The notes under the pieces were generated by a model that was given only the letters and a program-made list of their open reading frames with translations, did no database searches and was not told the origin of the DNA. From Variovorax sp. (GTDB lineage: Bacteria > Pseudomonadota > Gammaproteobacteria > Burkholderiales > Burkholderiaceae_C), in assembly GCA_028292285.1 (NCBI GenBank), contig JAQGMP010000305.1, positions 1-36,322 of the forward strand: DNA of 36,322 bases, in the 5' to 3' direction. Both the position numbers and the translations under genes were made by a program. Below, one piece after another: positions 8,632 through 36,322 of this stretch. Within the stretch, counting starts at the first letter, position 1. Each line of letters begins with the position of its first letter.

Positions 8632-9501
8632 TCACCAAGCCACGCGCTTGCGCGCCTGGGTCAACACCATCACTGCGCCCAGCACGATGGCCGACAGCGT
8701 GACCATCAGTGCACTCGCATAGCCGATCTCGAAGAACTCGAAACCCTTGCGAAAGCCGTAGATGTTGAGCGTGTTGGACGCGTTGCCTGGCCCCCCTTGC
8801 GTGGTGATGTAGATGATGTCGAAAAAGCGCAGCAAGTCGACGCTGCGCAGGATCGCTGCGGTGACGATGGTCGGCATGAGCAGCGGCAGCGTGATGCGCC
8901 AGAAAGTCTTCCAGCGCGAGGCGCCGTCGATCTGGGCCGCCTCGTACACATTCGGCGGCAGCGACTGCAGGCCGCCCAGCACGATGAGCGCCACGTACGG
9001 CGTCCATTGCCAGGTGTCGATGAAGGCCACCGTCGGGATCACCCACATCGGCGAGGCGAGCCAGTCGGACTTGGGCAGCCCGACGCTTTGCAGGATCCAG
9101 TTGGCGGCGCCGATCGAGGGGTCGAGCACCACCAGCCACATCATCCCCACCACGACCGGCGGCAGCACGAAGGGAGAGATCATGAGCGTGCGCACGATGC
9201 CCGAGAGCTTCTTCGACGTGTGCAGCAGGATTGCGACGTAGGTGCCCAGCACGAGTTGCAGCACCAGTGACAACACATAGAGGATCAGCGTGATCTTCAG
9301 CCCGTTCCAGAACTCCGCATCGCCCAGCATGAGCAGGTAGTTCTTGCCGTAGTTCATCATCGACGCGCCGCCGAATGTGAAGTCGTGCAGGCTCATCCAC
9401 AACGTGTAGGCGAACGGAAACGCGATGAGGGCGACGGTGAAAATCACCGCCGGGAGCGACATTGCCGTGAGCTGCCGGCGGGTGCCGATGGATTGGCTCA
9501 T
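8632..9501 (-). CDS. Carbohydrate ABC transporter permease (MalF type)
   Basis: MSQSIGTRRQLTAMSLPAVIFTVALIAFPFAYTLWMSLHDF; EAA-loop sequence VYEAAQIDGASRWKTFWRITLPLLMPTI. Confidence 0.92.
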   Translation of the reverse strand: MSQSIGTRRQLTAMSLPAVIFTVALIAFPFAYTLWMSLHDFTFGGASMMNYGKNYLLMLGDAEFWNGLKITLILYVLSLVLQLVLGTYVAILLHTSKKLSGIVRTLMISPFVLPPVVVGMMWLVVLDPSIGAANWILQSVGLPKSDWLASPMWVIPTVAFIDTWQWTPYVALIVLGGLQSLPPNVYEAAQIDGASRWKTFWRITLPLLMPTIVTAAILRSVDLLRFFDIIYITTQGGPGNASNTLNIYGFRKGFEFFEIGYASALMVTLSAIVLGAVMVLTQARKRVAW

Positions 9502-9518
9502 GTTGCGTTTTGCTTCGC

Positions 9519-10268
9519 TTAACCAGCCAGAAATCCGCCATCGACCGCCAGCACGGTGCCGGTGATGTAGTGCGCCGACTTCGATGCCAGAAACACCACG
9601 CTGCCCGCGATGTCGTCGGGCTGCGCCCAACGCCCTTGCGGTATGCGCGAGCGGATGCGTTCGTAGTGCGAAAGGTCTTGCCGGCCTTCGGCGTTGATGG
9701 CCGTTTCGACGTAGCCCGGTGCGACCGCGTTGACCCGCACGCCGTCGGCAGCCCACGCCAGCGCCAGCGATTTGGTCAGCATCACCACGCCGCCCTTGCT
9801 CGCGCAGTAAGCTGGAATCGCCGGCAATGCGACGAATGCGTTCATCGACGCGATGTTGACGATGCAGCCGCCCTGCACCGCCAGCAGAGGCTTGCAGGCG
9901 TTGCAAAGCCGGAAGGTACCGGTCAGGTTGACGTCCAGCACCCGCTGGAAGGTCGCGACATCGAACTCCTTGAAGCGCGCCAAGATGCCGGCGCAATTGA
10001 CCAGCGTGTGCAACGTGCCGAGTCCACTGACGAACTCCGCCACCTGGGCATCGCTCGTGACATCGAGTGTCGCCAGGCGCAAGCGCTTGTGTGGCTGCAA
10101 GCTGGTACCGGTCAGTGCTGTCGCGTCGACGCCGGTCGCAACCACGTCGCTCCCGGCTTCAAGAAAAGCCCTGACGATGGCGGCGCCAATGTCCCCGACA
10201 CCGCCCACGACCAAAACGCGATGGCTCGAATGACATGGCCCCGGCGTCATCGTGACTTCTCCGCTCAT
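9519..10268 (-). CDS. SDR-family oxidoreductase
   Basis: VLVVGGVGDIGAAIVRAFLEAG, NCAGILARF, YCASKGGVVMLTKSLALAWA, VDGGFLAG. ATG at 10268 overlaps the upstream stop; an alternative start is at 10250. Confidence 0.9.
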   Translation of the reverse strand: MSGEVTMTPGPCHSSHRVLVVGGVGDIGAAIVRAFLEAGSDVVATGVDATALTGTSLQPHKRLRLATLDVTSDAQVAEFVSGLGTLHTLVNCAGILARFKEFDVATFQRVLDVNLTGTFRLCNACKPLLAVQGGCIVNIASMNAFVALPAIPAYCASKGGVVMLTKSLALAWAADGVRVNAVAPGYVETAINAEGRQDLSHYERIRSRIPQGRWAQPDDIAGSVVFLASKSAHYITGTVLAVDGGFLAG

Positions 10269-11566
10269 TCCTTGGCAATCAATGCGTCGAGTTGCTTGTC
10301 GGCATCGGCACACGCTTCGGCAACGGTCTTCTGGCCGAGGATCACTTCGTCGACAGCCTGGCCCACGAACTCGCGTGACGCCGGGTTCGCGGTGATCGGG
10401 TAGCCGACTTCCGAAATGCCGGTCTTGCCCAGCTCGGTGACGGCCTTGGCCCATTCGCGTCGCACCGGCTGCTCGTCGATCCAGCGCTTGTAGTCGGCAC
10501 CGTTGGCCACTGCGGCGCGTGGCGGCGCAACGCCATCGAGCGCGAGTTTTTCCTGCACGGCCTTGCTCGTGGCCCACTGCACGAAGTACCAGGCGGCCTC
10601 CTTCTTCTTGCTGTGCGCCGATACGGACATGGTCCATCCGATGACGGTCGGCCGCGAGCCGCCTGGGCCCGCCGGCAGCACGGCAATGCTGGTGTCCTTC
10701 AGGCGGGCGTCACCCTGCATCACGCTGCTGAGTTCGTTCGAGGATTCGAACGCCATCGCCGCCTTGCCCTCGCGGTAGAGGCCCGATATTTGATAGAAGC
10801 TGTAGTTCACCACGCCCGGTGGGCCATAGTCCTTCAGGAGCTTGGCGTAGAGGCCAAGCGAGGTCTGGCCCTCCTTGCTGCACAACTGCGACTTGCCGCC
10901 CTTCATGTAGTCGCCACCCATGTTGTGCAGGAAGACGCTGTAGCTGAACGGCAGCGCGGGCTTGAGTCCACGCGAGACAAAGGGCGTCACGTTGGAATCG
11001 CACGCCTTGAGCTTGGCCGCCACGCCTTCAAGTTCGGGCAGGCTGGCCGGCAGGGCTACGCCGCATTTCTGGAACATGTCCTTGCGGTAGTAAAGCACCG
11101 GCCCTTCGATGTTGAGCGGCACGCCCATCACGCGGCCGTTGTAGCTCGCGTCCTTGACCAGTCCCGGACTGATGTCGCCGAAGTCGTAGTCTTTGCTGGA
11201 TACAGCTTTCACGTAGTCGGTGAGGTCGGCATACCAGCCGGCTTTCGCGAACTGGATGCCTTCGCGCGAAGGCAGCGACATGAAGAGGTCGATCTCGTCG
11301 CTACGCGAGTTCATCACCGTGACCAGACGCTGGCGCATCTGCTGCTCCTGGTAAGCATCGACCTTCAACGTCATGCCGGTCTGCTTTTCGAAGTCGGCTT
11401 TTTGCTTAAGCAGTGCATTCGCGACCGGGTTGTTGTTGGCCAGGAAGGTCAGCGTCGTGCCTTGGTGCTTCTTCCAGTCAAAGGCCTGAGCAATCGCCGA
11501 CTGGCTGCAGACAGCGAATGCGGCAAGCGCGAAAGGCAATGCGGAACGATGATTCTTGAGCGTCAT
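10265..11566 (-). CDS. Sugar ABC transporter extracellular solute-binding protein (family 1 type)
   Basis: Signal peptide MTLKNHRSALPFALAAFAVCSQSAIAQA, then TTLTFLANNNPVANALLKQKADFEKQTGMTLKV; adjacent to the cognate permeases. Confidence 0.92.
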   Translation of the reverse strand: MTLKNHRSALPFALAAFAVCSQSAIAQAFDWKKHQGTTLTFLANNNPVANALLKQKADFEKQTGMTLKVDAYQEQQMRQRLVTVMNSRSDEIDLFMSLPSREGIQFAKAGWYADLTDYVKAVSSKDYDFGDISPGLVKDASYNGRVMGVPLNIEGPVLYYRKDMFQKCGVALPASLPELEGVAAKLKACDSNVTPFVSRGLKPALPFSYSVFLHNMGGDYMKGGKSQLCSKEGQTSLGLYAKLLKDYGPPGVVNYSFYQISGLYREGKAAMAFESSNELSSVMQGDARLKDTSIAVLPAGPGGSRPTVIGWTMSVSAHSKKKEAAWYFVQWATSKAVQEKLALDGVAPPRAAVANGADYKRWIDEQPVRREWAKAVTELGKTGISEVGYPITANPASREFVGQAVDEVILGQKTVAEACADADKQLDALIAKE

Positions 11567-12805: not shown

Positions 12806-12833
12806 GAGCGGGTAGGCGAGAAACCTACTGCTC
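12806..12833. terminator. Possible hairpin between convergent genes (LacI regulator and Bug receptor)
   Basis: GAGCGG-GTAGG-CGAGAAA-CCTAC-T-GCTC imperfect stem-loop; no convincing U-tract. Confidence 0.25.
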
Positions 12834-13793
12834 GATCTTTGCTGACTGCACGATCTTGCGAAACTTCTCGCGCTCGTTTCGCACGAAACCTTCGAACTCC
12901 GCTGTTGGCATACCGCTCGGAAGTGCCCCCTGCCGCAGCAACGTGTCACGCACTTCCGGAATCGCAAGGACCGCTGCCACGTCACGCTGGATTTGCTGCA
13001 CGACGGCCGCAGGCGTTTTCGCGGGCACGAATACACCGAACCACTGGATCAACTCGAATTTCTCCAGGCCGGGCGTGAGCGAAATCGGCGGAATACTCGG
13101 CGCGGCTTCAGCCACTGCTTTGGATGACACGCCAAGAGCCCGCAATTTGCCAGCTTCGATCTGCTGGAGTGCAGTCGGCAGCCCGGCAAAGCCGACGTCG
13201 ACCTGGCCGCTCAACAGATCAGTCATGGCTTGCGCCACGCCCTTGAATGGCACATGTAGCAAGGAGACGCCTGCCAGCTGCTCGACCAGCACCCCCGCTA
13301 GATGTTGGGGCGTGCCTGAGCCCGATGACGCGTAGCTCACCGCGCCGGGATGCTGCTTTGCATAGGCCAGCAGCCCTGCCATGTCCGTATACGGTTTCGA
13401 CGGCTGTGTTACCAGCGCGAACGGTAGACGCACAAGCAGCGTCACCGGCTGCAGATCTCTGTCCGGGTCGTAGGGCATCTTCTTCATGAAGTGCTCGTTG
13501 ATAACCACTTCGGCCGTGGCCGACATCAGGATTGTCGTGCCGTCGGGGGTTGCCCTGGCCACCGCATTCGCGCCGATCGTGCCACTTGCACCTGCCTTGT
13601 TGTCAACGACCACGGGTTGTTTCCAACGCAGGGCAAGCTGCTGGGACACAAGACGCGCCACCGGGTCGACACCACCCCCAGCGAGGTAGGGAACGATCAC
13701 TGTCACGGGCTTAGACGGCCATGGCTGTGACGCCGCCGGCAGGCTGCAGGACATAAATGCCGTCGCAGCAACCAAAGTCAGAAAAAGCTTCAT
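12825..13793 (-). CDS. Tripartite tricarboxylate transporter (Bug) substrate-binding protein
   Basis: MKLFLTLVAATAFMSCSLPAASQPWPSKPVTVIVPYLAGGGVDPVARLVSQQLALRWKQPVVVDNKAGASGTIGANAVARATPDGTTI. Confidence 0.94.
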   Translation of the reverse strand: MKLFLTLVAATAFMSCSLPAASQPWPSKPVTVIVPYLAGGGVDPVARLVSQQLALRWKQPVVVDNKAGASGTIGANAVARATPDGTTILMSATAEVVINEHFMKKMPYDPDRDLQPVTLLVRLPFALVTQPSKPYTDMAGLLAYAKQHPGAVSYASSGSGTPQHLAGVLVEQLAGVSLLHVPFKGVAQAMTDLLSGQVDVGFAGLPTALQQIEAGKLRALGVSSKAVAEAAPSIPPISLTPGLEKFELIQWFGVFVPAKTPAAVVQQIQRDVAAVLAIPEVRDTLLRQGALPSGMPTAEFEGFVRNEREKFRKIVQSAKIEQ

Positions 13794-13843
13794 CTGGATC
13801 TCCAATTTCGTTCTTAGAGGCTTGGCGGTCGCGTCTACGCCGT

Positions 13844-14698
13844 TCAGGTCAACAACGCATTCAACGCAGTCACGACAAGTATCCCGCCCGCCAGCAACAG
13901 CAATGCCGCAACAGCGTACCGCAGCATTGCAGGCGAGGCCTTTGACGGGAAGCGATGATTCAGTCTGGTGACACCGTAGACGACCGGCATTGCACATACA
14001 CTCAGCAAACCGGCCCGCGCGGAGAATTGCCCACTTGCGCCGATGAGCACCAGACGTGCTGCTGCATTGGCGGCGAACGCGAGCAAGAGGCAGTTGCGCA
14101 CCATGAGCGCATCAAGTGGCTGACGGTACAGGTGATAGACCAACGGCGGACCCGAGCTTGAGAAAAGCCCACCCAGGATTCCGGACAGAACGCCGACCAT
14201 CACGAAGCTGCGCGGGTGCGACATCGTGCTGCGCGGCTTGGCCTGGAGCAACAACATCGCGGCACAGGCCACGATGCAAATACCCAGCAGCCCGCGCAGC
14301 CAGTACAGAGATGTGCTGCCAAGCAGACCAAGGAGCGCCACACCGAGGGCGACCCCTATCGAACTGCTCCAGAGCACCGGACGCATCAGGCGCCACGGCG
14401 GCCGCACGCGATGCAGCCGGAAATAGCTCCACGCGTTGACCAACGTGAGAAGCATCGCAGCGTTTGCTGCATCGGGTATCGGACCCACGTGGAGCATGGC
14501 TACCAGGCCAAGGAGAATCAAGCTAAACGCGAAGCCGGTCAGGTTTTGAGCGTAGGTCGACACCGCCACGCATGCCATGAACAGTCCATACGCAGCTATG
14601 CTTGCGCCGAAGGCCGTCATAGCGAGAGCCGGCAGATAACCACGCGCGATGTCCGATCGCCTGAACAGGTCACCGAGGCCCCTCGATAGGATTGCCAT
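13844..14698 (-). CDS. TauE/SafE-family sulfite-exporter-like membrane permease
   Basis: Polytopic protein with YAQNLTGFAFSLILLGLVAML, a glycine-rich repeat SGILGGLFSSSGPPLVYHLYRQPLDALMVRNCLL, and several TM segments. Confidence 0.8.
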   Translation of the reverse strand: MAILSRGLGDLFRRSDIARGYLPALAMTAFGASIAAYGLFMACVAVSTYAQNLTGFAFSLILLGLVAMLHVGPIPDAANAAMLLTLVNAWSYFRLHRVRPPWRLMRPVLWSSSIGVALGVALLGLLGSTSLYWLRGLLGICIVACAAMLLLQAKPRSTMSHPRSFVMVGVLSGILGGLFSSSGPPLVYHLYRQPLDALMVRNCLLLAFAANAAARLVLIGASGQFSARAGLLSVCAMPVVYGVTRLNHRFPSKASPAMLRYAVAALLLLAGGILVVTALNALLT

Positions 14699-16052: not shown

Positions 16053-17156
16053 CTAGCCCCAACTGCATAAGCGAGCCCAAGCAGCCTGCATGTCGTCAAC
16101 CAGCACGCGCATCTGGTCGGCAACCGTGGTCTCGCGTTCGATGGCAAACACACTCTGGCCTGCAGCCTCGTAGATCAATTCGGCATTGTCGTATTCGTGC
16201 ATCGACGCGAACACATCGCCCGTGAGCGCCTGTTGCAGCGGCATGCCAAGCGGCGCGGGGGCACCGGACGCGTCCCATGCGTCGATCCACGCGCTGCGGA
16301 CCACGCGGCACGGCTTGCCGCTATGGGCGCGCGTGATCAGCGTGTCTTCGCTGCCGCTTTCGATGAGCCGCCGCAGCAATGCGGGCGGTGTGTGATTTTC
16401 TTTCGCGCCCATCCACAGCGTACCCAGCCATGCGCCCTGCGCGCCCATGCCCATCACGCCCAAAATCTGCGCCCCCGTTGCGATCCCGCCCGCCGCCAGC
16501 ACCGGCACGGTGCCCGCTTCGGCAATCACTTGCGGCAACAGTGAAAGCGTACCGACTGTGCCGGTGTGGCCGCCTGCGTCGTAGCCTTGCGCGACCAGCA
16601 CTTCCACGCCCATATCCAGGGCTTTGCGCGCATGGCGTACGGAGCCCACGAGCGAGAACGTGAGCTTGCCCCTTGCTTTTGCGCGCTCGATGAGATCGGC
16701 GCGCAGGCCGATGGCGGTCGCAATGGCGTGTGCGTCGGAGGCGAGCACTGCTTCGATCTGATCATCAAACAGCGCCTTGGTGCGTACCTGCGTGGTGAAA
16801 AAGCTTGGTTGCTCCGGTGGCTTGACACCGAAGCGCTCACGAAGTCCCTCCACGAAGGCCACGTGTTGCGCAGGCAATTGCGCACGCACGCTTTCCAGGC
16901 TCGCAGCATCGGGCACCTGCGACGGCAGCATCAGGTCGATGCCGTAGGGCATTCCGGCCATGCGCGCGCTGATCTCGGCCAGGATGTGCGGAATCTCCGC
17001 CGGCAATTCTCGTGCGAGCCCCAGCACTGGAAAACCGCCGGCATGCGCAACAGCAACGCACACATCCACCGAGTGCGAGAAACCGAAGATCGGATGACGG
17101 ATGCCCAGCCGGTCGCACAACGGCGGCCGCACAGGTGAATCGAGCGACCCGTTCAT
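16053..17156 (-). CDS. Nitronate monooxygenase/2-nitropropane dioxygenase-like flavin oxidoreductase
   Basis: LCDRLGIRHPIFGFSHSVDVCVAVAHAGGFPVLG; VLVAQGYDAGGHTGTVGTLSLLPQVIAEAGTVPVLAAGGIATGAQILGVMGMGAQGAWLGT. Confidence 0.85.
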   Translation of the reverse strand: MNGSLDSPVRPPLCDRLGIRHPIFGFSHSVDVCVAVAHAGGFPVLGLARELPAEIPHILAEISARMAGMPYGIDLMLPSQVPDAASLESVRAQLPAQHVAFVEGLRERFGVKPPEQPSFFTTQVRTKALFDDQIEAVLASDAHAIATAIGLRADLIERAKARGKLTFSLVGSVRHARKALDMGVEVLVAQGYDAGGHTGTVGTLSLLPQVIAEAGTVPVLAAGGIATGAQILGVMGMGAQGAWLGTLWMGAKENHTPPALLRRLIESGSEDTLITRAHSGKPCRVVRSAWIDAWDASGAPAPLGMPLQQALTGDVFASMHEYDNAELIYEAAGQSVFAIERETTVADQMRVLVDDMQAAWARLCSWG

Positions 17157-18133
17157 TGCGCCTCGATGCCCGCAGCCTTGATGACCTTGCCCCACTTGTC
17201 ATACTCGCTTGCGATGAAGGCGTCGAACTGCTTCGGCCCTTGCGGCGCGAGTTCAAGGCCCAGGATGTCGAACTTGGGCTTCATCGCGGGGTCAGCCAGT
17301 ATCGCGGCCACGTCGGCCGACAGCTTCGCGGCAATGGCGTCGGGTGTCTTCACCGGGGCGACGAGGCCAAACCATGTGCCAACGTCGTAGTCCTTCAGGC
17401 CCGTGGCTTCGGCAACGGTGGGAACGTCGGGCAAGGCACTGGAACGCGCGCGCGTGGTCACGGCCAGCGGACGCAGCTTGCCGGCCTTGATATGCGGCAC
17501 AGCCAGAGCCACCGTGAGGGGCATCATCGTCACGCGCCCCGCGAGCAGGTCGCTCAAAGCGTCTGGTTGCCCGCGGTACGGCACATGCGTGAGCTTGATG
17601 CCCGCGCTTTGTGCCAGCAGTTCCCCCGACAGGTGGTTGGAGGTGCCAACGCCGGCCGTAGCATAGGTGAGCGGCTGGGTGGCCTTCTTCGCCATCGCCA
17701 CCAGCTCGGCCATGCTCTTTACGGGCACTTCCGGCGGCACGACGAATACATTCGGAATGACGCCGAATCCTTCGATGGCGCGGAAGTCGCGCACGGGATT
17801 CCAGCCTACACCCTTGATGAGACTCGGCGCGACCGCATGGCCAGGACTCACGCAAAGCAGCGTGTAGCCATCGGGCGCCGACTTGGCGACGTAATCAGTG
17901 CCGATCGACCCTCCGGCGCCGGCCTTGTTCTCGATGATGACGGGCTGGCCGTACTTGACCGAAAGGCGCTCGCCCACGAGCCGCGCGATCGAGTCGACCA
18001 CGCCGCCGGCGGTGAAGGGAACGATGATGCGGATCGGCTTGGTCGGGTAGGTGTCCTGCGCAAGCGCGGGCGCAGCCAATGCCAGGGACTGGACTGCGAC
18101 GAACGCTGCCAGCAGGGTGCCTTTGAAAGTCAT
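17153..18133 (-). CDS. Tripartite tricarboxylate transporter (Bug) substrate-binding protein
   Basis: MTFKGTLLAAFVAVQSLALAAPALAQDTYPTKPIRIIVPFTAGGVVDSIARLVGERLSVKYGQPVIIENKAGAGGSIGTDYVAKSAPDGYTLL. Confidence 0.95.
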   Translation of the reverse strand: MTFKGTLLAAFVAVQSLALAAPALAQDTYPTKPIRIIVPFTAGGVVDSIARLVGERLSVKYGQPVIIENKAGAGGSIGTDYVAKSAPDGYTLLCVSPGHAVAPSLIKGVGWNPVRDFRAIEGFGVIPNVFVVPPEVPVKSMAELVAMAKKATQPLTYATAGVGTSNHLSGELLAQSAGIKLTHVPYRGQPDALSDLLAGRVTMMPLTVALAVPHIKAGKLRPLAVTTRARSSALPDVPTVAEATGLKDYDVGTWFGLVAPVKTPDAIAAKLSADVAAILADPAMKPKFDILGLELAPQGPKQFDAFIASEYDKWGKVIKAAGIEAQ

Positions 18134-29316: not shown

Positions 29317-29754
29317 TCAGGATTGTGCCGGTCGGTAGGCCACAGCCTTGATCTCGATCAATAGGTATGGATGCGGCAGCTGGTGCACTGCTACGGTTGT
29401 GCGCGCCGGCCCAGTCGAATCGAAGAACTCCCCGTAAACCTCGTTGTAGCCACCGAAATCGTTCATGTTGACGAGGTACGAACTGATCTCGACCACGTCT
29501 TCTAACCCCGCACCGACGCCTTGAAGAATGTCGCGGATGTTCTCGATGACGGCGCGCGTCTGCTCGCGGATGTCGAGCATGGTGGTGCCCATCGCGTCGG
29601 CCTGTGCGCCGGCAAAGCTGTTGTCGGCCCGGCGCGAACTCGTGCCCGACACGAACAGGAAATCACCGGCACGCTTGACGTGCGGAAACTTGCCGCGCGG
29701 CGTGGCCTTGCCCTGCACCAGCGTGCCGGTCGTGGTGTCTTGCGGATCGCTCAT
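29317..29754 (-). CDS. amnD: 2-aminomuconate deaminase (RidA/YjgF-family)
   Basis: [36 protein letters not shown]...[80 protein letters not shown] closely resembles remembered 2-aminomuconate deaminases. Confidence 0.85.
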
Positions 29755-31220
29755 GTCGGCTCCTGGTCGATGCGGATGCACACGTTGGTCAGCTCGGAAT
29801 AGAAATTCATCGAGTGCATGCCGCCCTCGCGCCCGATGCCCGACAACCCACTGCCGCCGAACGGCGTTCGCAGGTCGCGCAGGAACCATGAATTGACCCA
29901 CGCCAGCCCGACCTTCATCGATTGCGACACGCGGTGCGCGCGGTTCAGGTTGGTAGTCCAGATCGTCGCAGCCAATCCGTACCGCGTGTCGTTGGCGCGG
30001 CGGATGACCTCGGCTTCGGTGTCGAACGGCGCCACGTGGCAGATCGGTCCGAAGATCTCTTCCTTGATGCAACGCGCACTGTCGGGCAGGTCGGCGACCA
30101 CCGTGGGCTCGACCCAGAAGCCGTTGTCCAGCGCATTGCCGAAGTGCGGCACGCCGCCACCGGCGATGAAGCTTGCACCCTCCTCGAGTGCCAGCGCGTA
30201 GTAGCCCAGCACCTTGTCGCGATGCTCCGCCGAGATCATCGGGCCCATGGTGGTGGCCGCATCGGTCGGCCAGCCGAGCTTGACCGACTTCAAGCGCTCG
30301 GCCAGCGCCGCGACGAAGCGTTCATAGATTGGCCGCTCGACGAACACGCGCTCCGAGCACAGACACACTTGGCCGCTATTGAGGTAGATAGCACGCATCA
30401 TCCCGTCGAGCGTTTTGTCGAAGTCGCAATCGGCAAAGACGATGGCGGCGTTCTTGCCGCCGAGCTCGAAGGAGATCGGCTTCACATGTTCCGCAGCAGC
30501 TCGCATGATGGCCGAGCCTGTGCGCGATTCACCGGTAAAGGTGATGGCGTCGATGTCCGGGCTGGTCGTGATGAACTCGCCCGCCGAATCAGGCCCGAAA
30601 CCGTGCACCAGGTTGAACGCACCCGCCGGCATGCCGACGGCGTGCATCACCTCGGCCAGCAACGTGGCGGTGCCCGGTGTCTCTTCCGATGGCTTGCAAA
30701 CCACCGCGTTGCCGCAGGCCAGCGCCGGCGCCACTTTCCAGGTGAGCAACAGCAGCGGCAGGTTCCACGGCGAGATGATGCCCACCACGCCCAGGGGCTT
30801 GCGCACCGTGTAGTTGATGGCATGCGCGCCATCGGGCAGGTCGGTCTTGAACGACTCCAGCGGCGCGGTCTTGAGAATGTCGGCAAAGATGCGAAAGTTG
30901 GCCGCACCGCGCGGGATGTCGACGGTCGATGCGAGCGACGTCGGCTTGCCGGTGTCGCTCATCTCCGCTTCGAGAAAGTCGGCGAAGCGGCGCTCGATCT
31001 CGTCGGCGATGCGATAGAGCATGGCCGCGCGCTGCGCCGGCGGGGTTTTGCCCCACGCGCCATCGACGGCGGCTTTGCCGGCCGCGATGGCCGTCTCGAC
31101 CGCGGCCCTGTCGGCCTCGTGCACCTGCGCGATCACGCTGCCATCGGCCGGGTCGATGTCGTCGAAGCGCCGGGTCGATTCGACGAACTCGCCGGCGATG
31201 TAGTTGCGATACTGTTTCAT
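29751..31220 (-). CDS. amnC: Aldehyde dehydrogenase, 2-aminomuconate/2-hydroxymuconate semialdehyde dehydrogenase type
   Basis: [81 protein letters not shown]. The ATG of the deaminase overlaps its end, and the context is the 2-aminophenol pathway. Confidence 0.87.
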
Positions 31221-31255: not shown

Positions 31256-33283
31256 TCAAAGAAGTCGGACGACAGCCGCGCCGTTGCCGTACTGCGGGCC
31301 ATACGCCAGCACCTTGGCCTCGCCGAGGCGGCCGCCGAGCGCGCCCAGCGCAAATGCGAAGTGCTTGAAGCCCATGTCGACCTTGGCCTGCGCCAGGTAG
31401 TCGGGCAACTGGCGCGCCAGCTCGTCGAGTTCGCGCTGCTCGATGAGCTTCAGCATGCGGCGGTTCCAGTCGTCGTCGGTGGCCGTCGCGATCTTGTCGT
31501 CGGCCAGCGGGCGGTCGTCCCTGAATGCGGTGCCTGACAGTTCGCCGATGGCCAGCACGACGACGCGCTTGCCCTGTGCCGTCGCTTGCGCCGCGGCCAG
31601 CTCGCCGAGCGAGCGCGTCTTGTCGTAGTCGAGGTAGAGGTTGTTGGCAACGATGAGGGTCGGAAACACGCCATCGCCGTTGACCAGCGCATTCACCGAC
31701 AACGTGCCCGAGTCGAGCGGAAAACCGGCATAGTCGACCAGCTTCGAATGCACGCCGGCGCGGTTGGCCGCCTTCATGCAGGCGCGTGCCAGCGACACGT
31801 CGGTCGTGATGTCGTAGCGCATCTCGCCGAACTCGTGCCAGTTGTCGTCGACATGCAGACCGGTGATGCGGGCACGGCCTTGCCATTGCTGGTCGAGCAC
31901 CGCCAGCCAGCGCGTCGAGTAGATGACCAGCGTGTCGGGCTGCAGCTTTTCGATCTCGCGCGACACCTGCGCCATGCCGGCGAGCAGTTCGGCATACGCC
32001 GGCACGTTTCGCTGCAGCGTCAGCAACGGACTGCCGGGAAGCAGGTAGGCGCCGACCACGCCCGGCTGTTCCGTCAATGCCGCGCGGTTGGAGTGCGCGT
32101 TGTCGCCGAGCAGCAGGCGCTTCAGCTGGTTCCAGCTCGACGGTCCGCGGCGTGCGCGGTGCGGATGGCGCAGGTCGTGCACGATGCCCATCAGCCCGCG
32201 TGGCAGCAGCAGCATGAGGATGATCGACAGGGCACCCAGCACCAGCAGCCCCTGCCCGGCCACCGCGCCGAGCAGCCGGTCGACGACGATGAACAGCACG
32301 GCGCCGATCACCGGGCCGGCCACCGTGCCCATGCCACCGGCCACGACCACGAAGACGATGTAGGAGGCCCACGAGATCGCGAAAGCCGAAGGCGGCGTGA
32401 TGATCACCACGTCCATGAAGTACAGGCCCGACGCCAACCCCGTGATGACGGCGCTGAACATGAAGACGCCGGCCTTTACTTTGCTGACGTCGATGCCGCT
32501 GCTGCGCGCCGCCTCCTCGTCGTCACGCACCGCCGTCAACGCCAGCCCGTAGGTCGAGCGCATCCAACGCCAGATGATGGCGGTCGTGATGATGAGCAGC
32601 ACCAGCGCCACGTAGTAGAGTGATAGCGGCGACACGTCCGACTTCAACTGCATGCCACCGCCGGCGCCGGCCACGTTCCAGCCGTTGAACACGGTCGAGA
32701 CCGACTCCGCGATGAGCCAGGTCGCCACTGCGAAATACGCGCCCTGCAAGCGCAGCAGCGGCAGTGCGCCAAGAAAGATCAGCAGCAGGATCGCGACCCG
32801 GCGCACGTAGTCGCTCTTGAACACGTCAACCGCCGGATTGACCGCGATCAACCATTCGTACAGCACCCACAGGACGACCGCCACCGCCACGCCGATCCAC
32901 ATGCGGCGCTTGCTGCCGCTCTCGCGCAGCGGCAGGCACAGCAGCCAGGCGAAGAGCAACGACACGATGCCCGACACCGGCCAGGCGACCCAGATCGGCG
33001 TCGCCGCGTAATAGAAAACCAGCGCCTGCGCGAATCCGCCGAGGCCGATGAACACCTGCTGGCCGAAGCTGAGCAAACCGGCGTAGCCCGCCATCAGATT
33101 CCATGCATGACCGAGCAGCGCGAACACGAACACGGAGAACAACAGGTGCAGCGTGAAGCTGCTGCTCGGCAACGTCGCCGGCAGCACCAGCAGCACGACG
33201 GCGATAACCGCCGCCCACGCCGCGCCACGGCGGCCGTAGAACGACTCGGCCATTGCCTGAAGAGGTCGTTGCGGTGCGCTCAT
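31256..33283 (-). CDS. Apparent fusion: LivM-type branched-chain ABC permease (N-terminal) plus 2-aminophenol 1,6-dioxygenase alpha-subunit-like LigB-superfamily domain (C-terminal)
   Basis: One uninterrupted 675-codon ORF. The N-terminal part is polytopic with the LivM motif FAISWASYIVFVVVAGGMGTVAGPVIGAVLFIVVDRLLG. The C-terminal part is VVGAYLLPGSPLLTLQRNVPAYAELLAGM...TLVIYSTRWLAVLDQQWQ...GLHVDDNWHEFGEMRYDI...IGELSGTAFRDD...VDMGFKHFAFALGALGG...VLAYGPQYGNGAAVVRLL. Boundary about 32080-32165. Confidence 0.85.
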   Translation of the reverse strand: MSAPQRPLQAMAESFYGRRGAAWAAVIAVVLLVLPATLPSSSFTLHLLFSVFVFALLGHAWNLMAGYAGLLSFGQQVFIGLGGFAQALVFYYAATPIWVAWPVSGIVSLLFAWLLCLPLRESGSKRRMWIGVAVAVVLWVLYEWLIAVNPAVDVFKSDYVRRVAILLLIFLGALPLLRLQGAYFAVATWLIAESVSTVFNGWNVAGAGGGMQLKSDVSPLSLYYVALVLLIITTAIIWRWMRSTYGLALTAVRDDEEAARSSGIDVSKVKAGVFMFSAVITGLASGLYFMDVVIITPPSAFAISWASYIVFVVVAGGMGTVAGPVIGAVLFIVVDRLLGAVAGQGLLVLGALSIILMLLLPRGLMGIVHDLRHPHRARRGPSSWNQLKRLLLGDNAHSNRAALTEQPGVVGAYLLPGSPLLTLQRNVPAYAELLAGMAQVSREIEKLQPDTLVIYSTRWLAVLDQQWQGRARITGLHVDDNWHEFGEMRYDITTDVSLARACMKAANRAGVHSKLVDYAGFPLDSGTLSVNALVNGDGVFPTLIVANNLYLDYDKTRSLGELAAAQATAQGKRVVVLAIGELSGTAFRDDRPLADDKIATATDDDWNRRMLKLIEQRELDELARQLPDYLAQAKVDMGFKHFAFALGALGGRLGEAKVLAYGPQYGNGAAVVRLL

Positions 33284-34203
33284 TTTTTGGCGAGCAGGCC
33301 TTGCGGGCGTACCGCCAGGACCAGCAGGATGAGCAGGTAGCCCGACACCTGTTGCGCGGCCGGTCCGAAATAAGTGCCGGCGAGCACCTGCACGATGCCC
33401 AGCACGATGCCGCCGACGAAGCTGCCGGCCAGTGACCCGAGGCCGCCGAGGATCACCACGCCGAAAGCCATCAGCAGGAACGGCGGTCCGTCGAACGGCT
33501 GGAAGGAGCGGGACATGCCGACCATGAAACCCGCCACCGAGGCCGATGCCAGCGCCACGCCACTGGCCACCGCGTAGACGTGCGGCGTGCGCATGCCCAT
33601 CAGCGTCGCGATCTCCGGGTCGTCAGACGCGGCGCGGATCGCGCGGCCGATATGGGTCGAACGCATCCACAGCGCAAGACCGCCCAGCAGCACCGCAGCC
33701 GCCACGAAGAAGCCGAGCCGCAAGGTCGACACGCTCAGGTCTTCGGTCAGGCGAATGGCGGAGAACGACAGGTCGTTCTTGATGGTGGCCGCGTCGGAAT
33801 TGAAGATCAGCAGCATGCCCTGGCTCAACACGATCGACAGGCCGAAGGTGACGAGCAACGGCAGCATGAGGCCGAACACCGGCGACATGCCACGCCGCTC
33901 GGCCGACTGCACCGACACGTGGTTGAGGAGAAAGCGCTGCACCGCATAGCCGATGCCGTACATCAGCGGCACCACGATCACGAGCGACCAGAACGGTGCC
34001 ATCGGGATGTAGGTGAGCAAGGTCACGCAAAGGTACGCAGCCACGATGAGCCAGTCGCCGTGCGACAGGTTGACCAGCCGCATCACGCCGAAGTTGAGCG
34101 CCAGGCCGACGCTGATGAGCGCGTAGTAGCCGCCGAGCATGGCGCCCGACAGGATGCCGTTGGCGAGGTCGACACCGACCCAGTAGAGATCGACGTTACC
34201 CAT
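33280..34203 (-). CDS. Branched-chain amino acid-type ABC transporter permease (LivH type)
   Basis: LANGILSGAMLGGYYALISVGLALNFGVMRLVNLSHGDWLIVAAYL; FGVVILGGLGSLAGSFVGGIVLGIVQVL. Confidence 0.94.
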   Translation of the reverse strand: MGNVDLYWVGVDLANGILSGAMLGGYYALISVGLALNFGVMRLVNLSHGDWLIVAAYLCVTLLTYIPMAPFWSLVIVVPLMYGIGYAVQRFLLNHVSVQSAERRGMSPVFGLMLPLLVTFGLSIVLSQGMLLIFNSDAATIKNDLSFSAIRLTEDLSVSTLRLGFFVAAAVLLGGLALWMRSTHIGRAIRAASDDPEIATLMGMRTPHVYAVASGVALASASVAGFMVGMSRSFQPFDGPPFLLMAFGVVILGGLGSLAGSFVGGIVLGIVQVLAGTYFGPAAQQVSGYLLILLVLAVRPQGLLAKK

Positions 34204-34972
34204 GGGCCGCCCCTGCCTTGTGAGCTGCGGTCGTGCCGAAGTACGCCGCGGTGATCGCGTCTTCACTCACTTCGCCGGGCCGGCCTTCGAGCACGATGCT
34301 GCCTTCGAGCATGACGACGAAACGGTTGCAGGCCGACAGCGCGCGCTTCAGGTCCTGCTCGACCACGATGGTGGTGGTGCCACTCGCAACGATGCGCGCG
34401 AAATTCTTGTAGATCTCTTCGACCATCGCAGGCGACAGGCCGAGCGACAGCTCGTCGAAGATGACCAACTTGGGCGACGACATGAGTGCGCGGCCGATCG
34501 CCACCATCTGCTGCTCGCCGCCCGACATTTCCGACACCACCTGGCGACGCCGCTCTCGCAATGCCGGAAACAGCGTGAACACCTCTTCGAGCTTGGCCGG
34601 AATGGTCGGCCGGCAACGCGGCAGGTAAGCGCCGGCCAGCAGGTTGTCTTCGACCGACAGGCGCGCGAACAGGCGCCGGCCCTCGGGCACCAAGGCCACG
34701 CCGGCGTCGACGATGCGGTCGGGCGTGAGCTTGTCGAGGCGTTGGCCTTCGAACTCGATGACGCCACGCGTGCGCGTCTTGCCGCCTTGGTTCATGAGCC
34801 CGACCAGCGAGCGCAGCAGCGTCGACTTGCCGGCACCGTTGGCGCCGATGATGGCCAGCACATCGCCGCGCTGCAGCTCGAGCGAGATGTCGTAGATGGC
34901 CCGCAGCTCGCCGTAGTACGCGGCGAGGCTCGTCACCCGGAGCACAGGTGAGGACAAGGACGCCGCAGCCAT
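34196..34972 (-). CDS. ABC transporter ATP-binding protein (LivF type)
   Basis: AAYYGELRAIYDISLELQRGDVLAIIGANGAGKSTLLRSLVGL; EMSGGEQQMVAIGRALMSSPKLVIFDELSLGLSPAMVEEI. Confidence 0.95.
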   Translation of the reverse strand: MAAASLSSPVLRVTSLAAYYGELRAIYDISLELQRGDVLAIIGANGAGKSTLLRSLVGLMNQGGKTRTRGVIEFEGQRLDKLTPDRIVDAGVALVPEGRRLFARLSVEDNLLAGAYLPRCRPTIPAKLEEVFTLFPALRERRRQVVSEMSGGEQQMVAIGRALMSSPKLVIFDELSLGLSPAMVEEIYKNFARIVASGTTTIVVEQDLKRALSACNRFVVMLEGSIVLEGRPGEVSEDAITAAYFGTTAAHKAGAAHG

Positions 34973-34976
34973 GAGG

Positions 34977-35693
34977 TCAGAGGCCGAGGTATACACGCTT
35001 GACCTCCGGCAGATTGATGACTTCGTGCGGAATACCGATGGCCAGCACATTGCCGCCGGCCAGCGCCATCAGACGATCGGTCGCGGTCAGCATGGTGCGG
35101 ATGACGTGCTCGATCCAGACCACGGTCGTGCCCATGTTGCGGATGCGCCGCACCAGGTCGATGAATTCGCTGACCTCCGACTCGGTCAGGCCGGCGGCCA
35201 CCTCGTCGATCAGCAGCAGCTTGGGCCGTGCCGCCAGCGCACGGGCCAGCTCGTGCCGCTTGCGCACCAGCAACGGCAGGCGGCCCGCCAGCGTGTCGGC
35301 ATGTCGCGTAAGGCCGGTGGTAGCGAGCGTGCGCTCGATCCAGTCGGTCGCCTCGACGCCCTGCATGCCGCCAGCGAAGGTCGCAGCCACGCGCAGGTTG
35401 TCGAACACCGTCATCTGGCCGAAAGGCCGCGGCACCTGGAAGGTGCGGGCGATGCCCAGCCGGGCGCGGTCGTGCGTGACCAGCGCAGTGATGTCGTCGC
35501 CCCTGAAGATGACCTTGCCGGCCGAGGGCGGGATGTGGCCCGACAGCATGCCGAAGAGCGTGGTCTTGCCGGCCCCGTTGGGCCCGATGACGCCGAGGAT
35601 CTCGCCTTCGGCCACGTTGAAATGTACATCGCTCGCCACATGGATGGCGCCGAACGATTTGGTGAGTCCTTGCACCTGGAGGATGTCGGCCAT
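34977..35693 (-). CDS. ABC transporter ATP-binding protein (LivG type) with non-canonical signature motif
   Basis: LTKSFGAIHVASDVHFNVAEGEILGVIGPNGAGKTTLFGMLSGHIPPSAGKVIFRGDDIT; the LSGGQ position reads LPLLVRKRHELARALAARPKLLLIDEVAAGL. Confidence 0.94.
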   Translation of the reverse strand: MADILQVQGLTKSFGAIHVASDVHFNVAEGEILGVIGPNGAGKTTLFGMLSGHIPPSAGKVIFRGDDITALVTHDRARLGIARTFQVPRPFGQMTVFDNLRVAATFAGGMQGVEATDWIERTLATTGLTRHADTLAGRLPLLVRKRHELARALAARPKLLLIDEVAAGLTESEVSEFIDLVRRIRNMGTTVVWIEHVIRTMLTATDRLMALAGGNVLAIGIPHEVINLPEVKRVYLGL

Positions 35694-35707
35694 CGTGTTG
35701 CGCTGAC

Positions 35708-36322
35708 TCAGACCCGCGGCGTGTTGGCTGCCTGCAGCACCCACTGGCACAGCATGCTCTTCGGGTCTTCGAAGCCGTAGATGGCGGTGAAGTGATTCGC
35801 CCCGGGCTGCGCCCACGACTTCGCGCGATTGCCGATGTCTTTCCAGCCTTCGAGGTAGCGCTCGGACTGCCGGCGGAATTCACCCGGCTCGGCGTCGCCC
35901 CACGTGACGAGCGCCGGCGTCGGCGACTTGCGCAAGTGGAACAGCGGCGAGTTGCGCTGGATCACGCCGTCGTCGAGCTGCAACTGCGGCTGCTTGTTGC
36001 TGTAGCGCAGCGGCCGCAGGTCGAACAGGCCGCTGACCATCACGACGCCGCGCAAGGGATCCTGCGGCAGCCCGTACTCTTCGGCCCATGGCGTCTGCAC
36101 GCACATGGCGGTCAGGTGGCCGCCGGCCGAATGGCCGCCGACGACCACCCGGGTCGGATCGCCGCCGTACCGTTCGATGCGACGCAGAACCCACGCTACC
36201 GCTGAGCGCGCCTGCCGCGAGATCTCGTCGATCGACACCTTGGGCGAAAGCGCGTAGTTGACCACCACCACCGTGATGCCGAGCTGGTTCAGGCCCAGCG
36301 CCACGCAGCTGAACTCTTTCGA
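35708..36322 (-). CDS. Alpha/beta hydrolase (arylformamidase/esterase-like), N-terminus truncated by window edge
   Basis: VVVVNYALSPKVSIDEISRQARSAVAWVLRRIERYGGDPTRVVVGGHSAGGHLTAMCV (GHSAGGHL nucleophile elbow). The frame stays open to the window end. Confidence 0.87.
   Translation of the reverse strand, partial: SKEFSCVALGLNQLGITVVVVNYALSPKVSIDEISRQARSAVAWVLRRIERYGGDPTRVVVGGHSAGGHLTAMCVQTPWAEEYGLPQDPLRGVVMVSGLFDLRPLRYSNKQPQLQLDDGVIQRNSPLFHLRKSPTPALVTWGDAEPGEFRRQSERYLEGWKDIGNRAKSWAQPGANHFTAIYGFEDPKSMLCQWVLQAANTPRV

Follow-up and report, generated by a model that had tools for sequence, protein, structure and literature searches.

A Permease and a Dioxygenase Subunit in One Open Reading Frame

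Analysis of the window, by which we mean the whole 36,322-nucleotide stretch of Variovorax sp. DNA studied here, confirmed that it encodes a genuine in-frame fusion of a LivM-type permease to an AmnA-like alpha subunit of the aminophenol dioxygenase family. The minus-strand frame of the gene contained 675 codons without a stop (Table 1), and its ATG overlapped the LivH stop codon by 4 nt (ATGA, 33280–33283). Pfam searches placed BPD_transp_2 at residues 45–357 (E 1.1e-25) and LigB at residues 431–654, both far over the gathering score. The preliminary description of this DNA had proposed that LivM and an AmnA-like alpha subunit share one ORF, and the open frame, the Pfam domains, the alpha-chain best matches and 13 other assemblies with the same fusion all bear this out.

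Table 1. Positions of the fusion gene, its domains, the neighboring genes in the window and the related features at other loci.
Feature	Locus	Position	Strand	Basis or remark
LivM::AmnA fusion gene, 675 aa	Window	31256–33283	−	Open frame; Pfam BPD_transp_2/LigB; 13 other assemblies
LivM-type permease domain, residues ~1–370	Window	32174–33283	−	BPD_transp_2; all-helical part of AF2 model
Basic flexible linker, residues ~371–406	Window	32066–32173	−	Residues 393–406 with pLDDT <50
AmnA-like alpha-subunit domain, residues 409–673	Window	31265–32059	−	Match to 3vsg_A and fold; metal ligands absent
LivH-type second permease subunit	Window	33280–34203	−	58% to Ensifer LivH; stop overlaps fusion start (ATGA)
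LivF-type ATPase	Window	34196–34972	−	62% to Ensifer LivF
LivG-type ATPase	Window	34977–35693	−	62% to Ensifer LivG
Alpha/beta hydrolase (Abhydrolase_3/BD-FAE)	Window	35708–36322	−	Pfam; 47% to Ensifer hydrolase; cut by contig end
2-Hydroxy/2-aminomuconic semialdehyde-type aldehyde dehydrogenase (AmnC-like)	Window	29751–31220	−	TIGR03216, 867 bits vs. cut-off 693
RidA-family protein, candidate 2-aminomuconate deaminase (AmnD-like)	Window	29317–29754	−	Ribonuc_L-PSP/Rid family
Three-domain protein	L038	6151–9261	−	
Three-domain protein	L039	14101–17214	+	
Three-domain protein	L058	12016–15138	+	
Three-domain protein	L060			
Three-domain protein	L061			
Flotillin gene	L036	3765–5522	−	
Flotillin gene	L024	6648–8720	−	
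Flotillin gene	L039	4754–6457	−	
Flotillin gene	L058	3262–4986	−	
Flotillin gene	L045	893–2599	−	

The permease part was assigned to an ABC importer of the HAAT/LivFGHM type based on its BPD_transp_2 domain and its LivH, LivF and LivG partners, features that it has in common with permeases of the LivM/UrtC type. It differs from these in its catabolic operon, in its C-terminal enzyme-subunit domain and in its scores, which were far under the cut-offs of the curated models for LivM (NF008450; 106.8 bits vs. 366) and UrtC (101.6 bits vs. 296). The AF2 model of the fusion, whose input rows left out plasmid-collection sequences, had a mean pLDDT of 80 and a pTM of 0.55, with a helical membrane part and a poorly ordered linker at residues 393–406. 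A fold search with this model returned no permease match with E <0.001. Basic residues follow the last permease helix (positive-inside), and based on these residues and on the cytosolic partner enzyme, the C-terminus of the fusion is probably cytoplasmic.

The linker had the same coding periodicity as both flanking domains, with GC at the three codon positions of 0.72/0.47/0.88, compared to 0.63/0.45/0.90 in LivM and 0.70/0.42/0.88 in AmnA. Across the ten members with a parsed linker, 47–52 residues lay between a PRGxMG motif and the alpha domain.

Recurrence of the Fusion in Other Genomes

The window comes from a fragmented metagenome-assembled genome (MAG; 695 contigs, 59% complete), so it was a real possibility at the outset that a lost stop codon or a frame error had joined two neighboring genes. 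Thirteen other assemblies of Burkholderiales and Alphaproteobacteria (14 with the window, in two classes) were, however, found to carry the same fusion as an uninterrupted frame, which excludes chance or a lost stop as its origin. These fused homologs, and the coding periodicity that continues through the linker, led us to reject a frame error as well, and we consider any sequence artifact extremely improbable. The fusion of Xenophilus sp. L33 was 90% identical to that of the window, two more assemblies had fusions at 74% identity, and three fused genomes of the same order were 56–58% identical to it. Starting from two Rhodospirillales MAGs and searching their class led to six alphaproteobacterial genomes with the fusion; direct comparison with the window, made for two of them, gave 50–51% identity. 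On the complete plasmid pC of Ensifer adhaerens M8, the fusion is annotated in RefSeq as a single CDS (WP_252161566.1, “hypothetical protein”). Most members are MAGs or genomes without a name, and the fused assemblies include an isolate as well as this completely sequenced plasmid.

The spread of the fusion was patchy. Of 101 relatives, 2 carried it, as did 4 of 399 genomes from the order. Of 385 genomes from the alphaproteobacterial class, seven had a match, five of them to the fusion and two to the alpha part only. In samples of the window's own class and phylum it was identified only in the window's genome. The preliminary description had named, as an outcome that would speak against a fusion, homologous loci that always consist of two separate genes; every full-length homolog that we found was fused.

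Comparison of the window and Xenophilus (L036) genes by the NG86 method gave a dN/dS of 0.062 in the permease part and 0.080 in the alpha part, and the free alpha genes of Xenophilus and contig C319 (described below) gave 0.086. These low values in both halves of the fusion indicated that the permease and the alpha domain are each under purifying selection. In AU tests, p was 0.036 against the fused alphas as one clade and 0.070 for the free alphas as one clade; on these values the fusion may have arisen once or several times.

The Fused Domain Is an Alpha Subunit without the Iron Site

Sequence and structure comparisons both supported the earlier assignment of the C-terminal domain to the alpha subunits. 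It matched the alpha chains 3vsg_A and 8ihg_B with E-values of 1e-76 and 1.7e-67, and the beta chains of the same two enzymes with E-values of 5.8e-18 and 2.1e-19. Its AF2 model superposed on 3vsg_A with a TM-score of 0.95 (1.5 Å), and TM-scores overall were 0.91–0.95 against alpha chains vs. 0.82–0.84 against beta chains.

We then compared 14 fused alphas, 18 free alphas and 11 betas at the columns (His13, His62, and Glu251) that, judging by known motifs and not by coordinates, correspond to the iron ligands of beta. These presumed ligand columns were H, H and E in all 11 betas. The fused alphas had G/A/S at the first position, R/Q/S at the second and D/E at the third; the free alphas had G/A/S, Q/A and D/E, respectively. 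Both histidines of the 2-His-1-carboxylate iron site are therefore replaced in the fused domain, and it should not cleave a ring alone; we therefore reject the reading of this domain as an enzyme active in ring cleavage. In the aminophenol dioxygenase family the iron sits in beta, the heterodimers pair via beta, and alpha and beta are each insoluble singly and co-purify (PMC10470539). The expression “ring-cleavage enzyme subunit” in the preliminary description is thus correct as to the alpha subunit, but with two of three metal ligands absent it should not be read as ring-cleaving activity of this domain on its own.

The fused domain resembles the alpha subunits of 2-aminophenol and 2-amino-5-chlorophenol 1,6-dioxygenases (AmnA and CnbCa; PDB 3VSG, 8IHG, and 7TXY) in sequence, fold, absent metal ligands and pathway neighborhood. 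It differs in that AmnA and CnbCa are normally free soluble subunits of ~270 aa, whereas the fused domain forms the C-terminal end of an ABC permease chain and occurs, in relatives, alongside a free alpha. Among 78 sites invariant in the free alphas, 56 were shared by 90% or more of the fused alphas and 65 by the window. The remaining 22 sites were not retained at that level, and at residue 458 four fused members had Arg where the free alpha has Gln; from the alignment, these changes could represent a changed partner or role.

Operon Context

The gene order in the window is hydrolase (cut), LivG, LivF, LivH, fusion, dehydrogenase and RidA, with the RidA-family gene overlapping the dehydrogenase gene by 4 nt. 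The dehydrogenase passed the model for 2-hydroxymuconic semialdehyde dehydrogenase, which is the step expected after aminophenol ring cleavage. A dehydrogenase also follows the fusion in the close relatives L036, L037 and L013, and a RidA-family gene comes next where the sequence reaches. Relatives of the hydrolase include kynurenine formamidase (4e11) and esterases; a benzoxazolinone or N-acyl-aminophenol precursor was considered as its substrate, and a single search gave no support for either. Elsewhere, the 36-kb window carries CoA-transferase and acyl-CoA dehydrogenase genes and three TctC genes for binding proteins of the tripartite-tricarboxylate type (4–876, 12825–13997, and 17153–18133).

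The window contig ends in the hydrolase gene, short of the amnBA/flotillin part of the cluster, and contains no amnB or flotillin gene. Most loci with enough sequence had the order amnB, amnA (free), periplasmic binding protein (Peripla_BP_6, a position that lies beyond the window's end), hydrolase (in some), LivG, LivF, LivH and LivM::AmnA. Hence amnB is in the same cluster as the fusion in most relatives, and their operons encode a separate catalytic beta and a free alpha besides the fused alpha. Ensifer is an exception, with amnBA ~14–15 kb from the transporter operon. At the unfused transporter loci of Shinella p1 and Rhizobium BG4, the hydrolase gene came directly after LivM and AmnA was not found. 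A second contig of the same bin, C319 (L045), encodes flotillin, RidA, amnB, amnA, a binding protein and a hydrolase. It overlapped the end of the window (35642–36322) at only 84% identity, which ruled it out as the window's missing continuation and indicated that it represents another strain, species or copy, the bin being mixed or the genome having two copies.

The Novosphingobium humi plasmid (L027) has two separate amnBA pairs (745–2456 and 9090–10801) ~7 kb apart. RefSeq names AmnB and/or AmnA “tRNA U-34 5-methylaminomethyl-2-thiouridine biosynthesis protein” on Ensifer pC (L062, 4516–6371) and in a Pseudomonas veronii plasmid match, which is probably a propagated misannotation.

Triple Fusions and a Flotillin Neighbor

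Five alphaproteobacterial MAGs (G461, G462, G527, G741, and G819) encode chains of 1024–1040 aa in which LivM and AmnA are followed by a hydrolase homologous to that of the window. Pfam identified the permease, LigB and hydrolase domains in both triple fusions that were scanned. The linker between AmnA and the hydrolase is on the scale of 80 residues and rich in Arg, Pro or Ala. It had no ATG, GTG or TTG in four of the five, so that the hydrolase there should be made solely within the chain; G527 had several such codons. The hydrolase motifs HGGYW, GHSAGGH, GGDE and NHF (Ser/Asp/His) were kept in the four triple fusions that were parsed, and from these motifs the triple fusions plausibly join an active enzyme covalently to the importer.

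Bacterial flotillins are widespread and organize membrane patches. A gene of this family (Flot and Band_7) adjoined the fused operon, on the opposite strand, at all ten fused loci with enough flank (L024, L036, L037, L038, L039, L040, L058, L059, L060, and L061), the family being named by Pfam or RefSeq at four loci and by tblastn at the others. No flotillin was found at the unfused amnBA loci (L015, L017, L018, L019–L023, and L027), where some of the control flanks were short, or at the unfused transporter loci L025 and L026, and five of six control genomes had no flotillin match at all. A Fisher test of 10/10 vs. 0/6 gave p 1.2e-4, a value to be read with the loci being related and non-independent, the association having been noticed before testing, and some control flanks being short. 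In Ensifer, the flotillin gene adjoins the transporter operon and not amnBA.

A Proposed Membrane Dock for the Dioxygenase

That distant bacteria share the fusion, in some cases extended by a hydrolase, suggests a physical link at the membrane between the import of a toxic aromatic and its degradation. Since the relatives' operons encode a catalytic beta and a free alpha and the fused alpha is non-catalytic, any recruitment to the membrane would have to act via beta. The substrate channeling or membrane recruitment raised in the preliminary description has indirect support from the triple fusions, the flotillin neighbor and the selection on both domains. The permease half of the fusion is the second permease subunit of a LivFGHM-type importer, and the domain at its C-terminus is a catalytically dead alpha. 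In the reading that we favor, this alpha keeps its ancestral role of binding the catalytic beta (AmnB, from the same operon type). Binding of this kind would hold the iron-containing enzyme where the importer opens into the cytoplasm. Once imported, the precursor would be hydrolyzed by the alpha/beta hydrolase that the operon encodes and that, in the five alphaproteobacterial MAGs, belongs to the fusion chain itself; the ring would then be opened by beta at the membrane, perhaps with channeling between the steps. The dehydrogenase and the deaminase of the RidA family would take over the unstable semialdehyde. A reason for coupling these steps is offered by the chemistry of the ring-cleavage product: without action of the dehydrogenase it cyclizes to picolinic acid (PMC10470539), a compound that inhibits growth (PMC3790839).

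We put the chances that the fused alpha serves to anchor beta at the membrane, so that hydrolysis and ring cleavage take place where the substrate leaves the importer, at about even. In its favor we count the 14 assemblies with the fusion, the conserved operon, the triple fusions, the flotillin neighbor, the purifying selection on both domains and a fold near identical to that of real alpha chains. Against it, relatives also encode a free alpha, so beta has no need of the fused one, the sites at which fused alphas depart from free ones could reflect a changed partner or role, and the flotillin gene is divergently transcribed and outside the operon. The neighboring flotillin may gather the assembly in a membrane patch. 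The resulting flotillin-scaffolded, importer-tethered complex, in which a pseudo-enzyme dock (with a hydrolase in some lineages) recruits the aminophenol dioxygenase so that a toxic aromatic is hydrolyzed and ring-opened on entry, is a more tentative proposal, to which we give somewhat worse than even chances.

The main rival to docking is that the metal-less alpha keeps its aromatic pocket, senses aminophenol or its product and throttles or promotes transport from the cytoplasm, in the way of the known ABC importers with C-terminal regulatory domains. The alpha domain probably lies where the permease meets the cytoplasm, close to the ATPases, which would suit such a sensor, as would its being a diverged paralog beside a free alpha, and lineage-specific changes such as the Arg for Gln at residue 458 could tune binding. 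The loss of the two metal-binding histidines is also consistent with sensing, but ordinary free alphas equally have no metal ligands, so the fusion is not distinguished by this loss. A sensor would also leave both the triple fusion with the hydrolase and the flotillin neighbor unexplained. We consider this role unlikely. Another reading is that cleavage of the linker or re-initiation frees a second soluble alpha, and that the fusion couples expression only, with no spatial function. The basic, flexible linker would permit this, and the preliminary description had pointed to an internal TTG near 32077, just ahead of the alpha domain, as an additional start for free AmnA. The codon is present and, as described, has no Shine–Dalgarno sequence upstream. 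However, it is kept only in close relatives (the window, L036, and G460), and most other members with a parsed linker have no start codon at that position, which led us to reject it as a general start. The operon of relatives already has a free alpha gene, and the hydrolase linker in four of five triple fusions has no start codon. We regard such a supply of free alpha as distinctly improbable.

Relation to Known Systems

Our search of open-access literature turned up no earlier description of an ABC-importer permease joined to a soluble catabolic dioxygenase subunit, and nothing relevant on a LivM–dioxygenase fusion or on phenotypes of Ensifer adhaerens M8. If docking of beta by the fused alpha is correct, the fusion would be a compact, genetically encoded case of coupled uptake and catabolism, testable by deleting one domain, in which a catalytically dead subunit is used as a membrane dock. 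It would also provide a rationale for the flotillin gene that accompanies the catabolic operon.

The ARO bacterial microcompartment of Actinobacteria is thought to enclose the 2-aminophenol dioxygenase pathway in a protein shell (PMC10470539). It is similar to the system described here in its dioxygenase family, its dehydrogenase step and a proposed spatial organization that has been argued to contain unstable intermediates (PMC10470539). It differs in having a protein shell and no fusion, and in belonging to another phylum, whereas we propose a membrane tether. The flotillin-scaffolded complex, if real, would be the membrane counterpart of this microcompartment.

In SulP–carbonic anhydrase, a natural transporter–enzyme fusion, the joined parts are believed to link import to the first step inside the cell, according to Felce and Saier (2004) as cited in PMC6458275. 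That protein combines a secondary transporter with a catalytic enzyme, whereas the window's two-domain form combines an ABC-importer permease with a non-catalytic subunit that has no metal site, and so has no competent enzyme domain; in some lineages a hydrolase is added.
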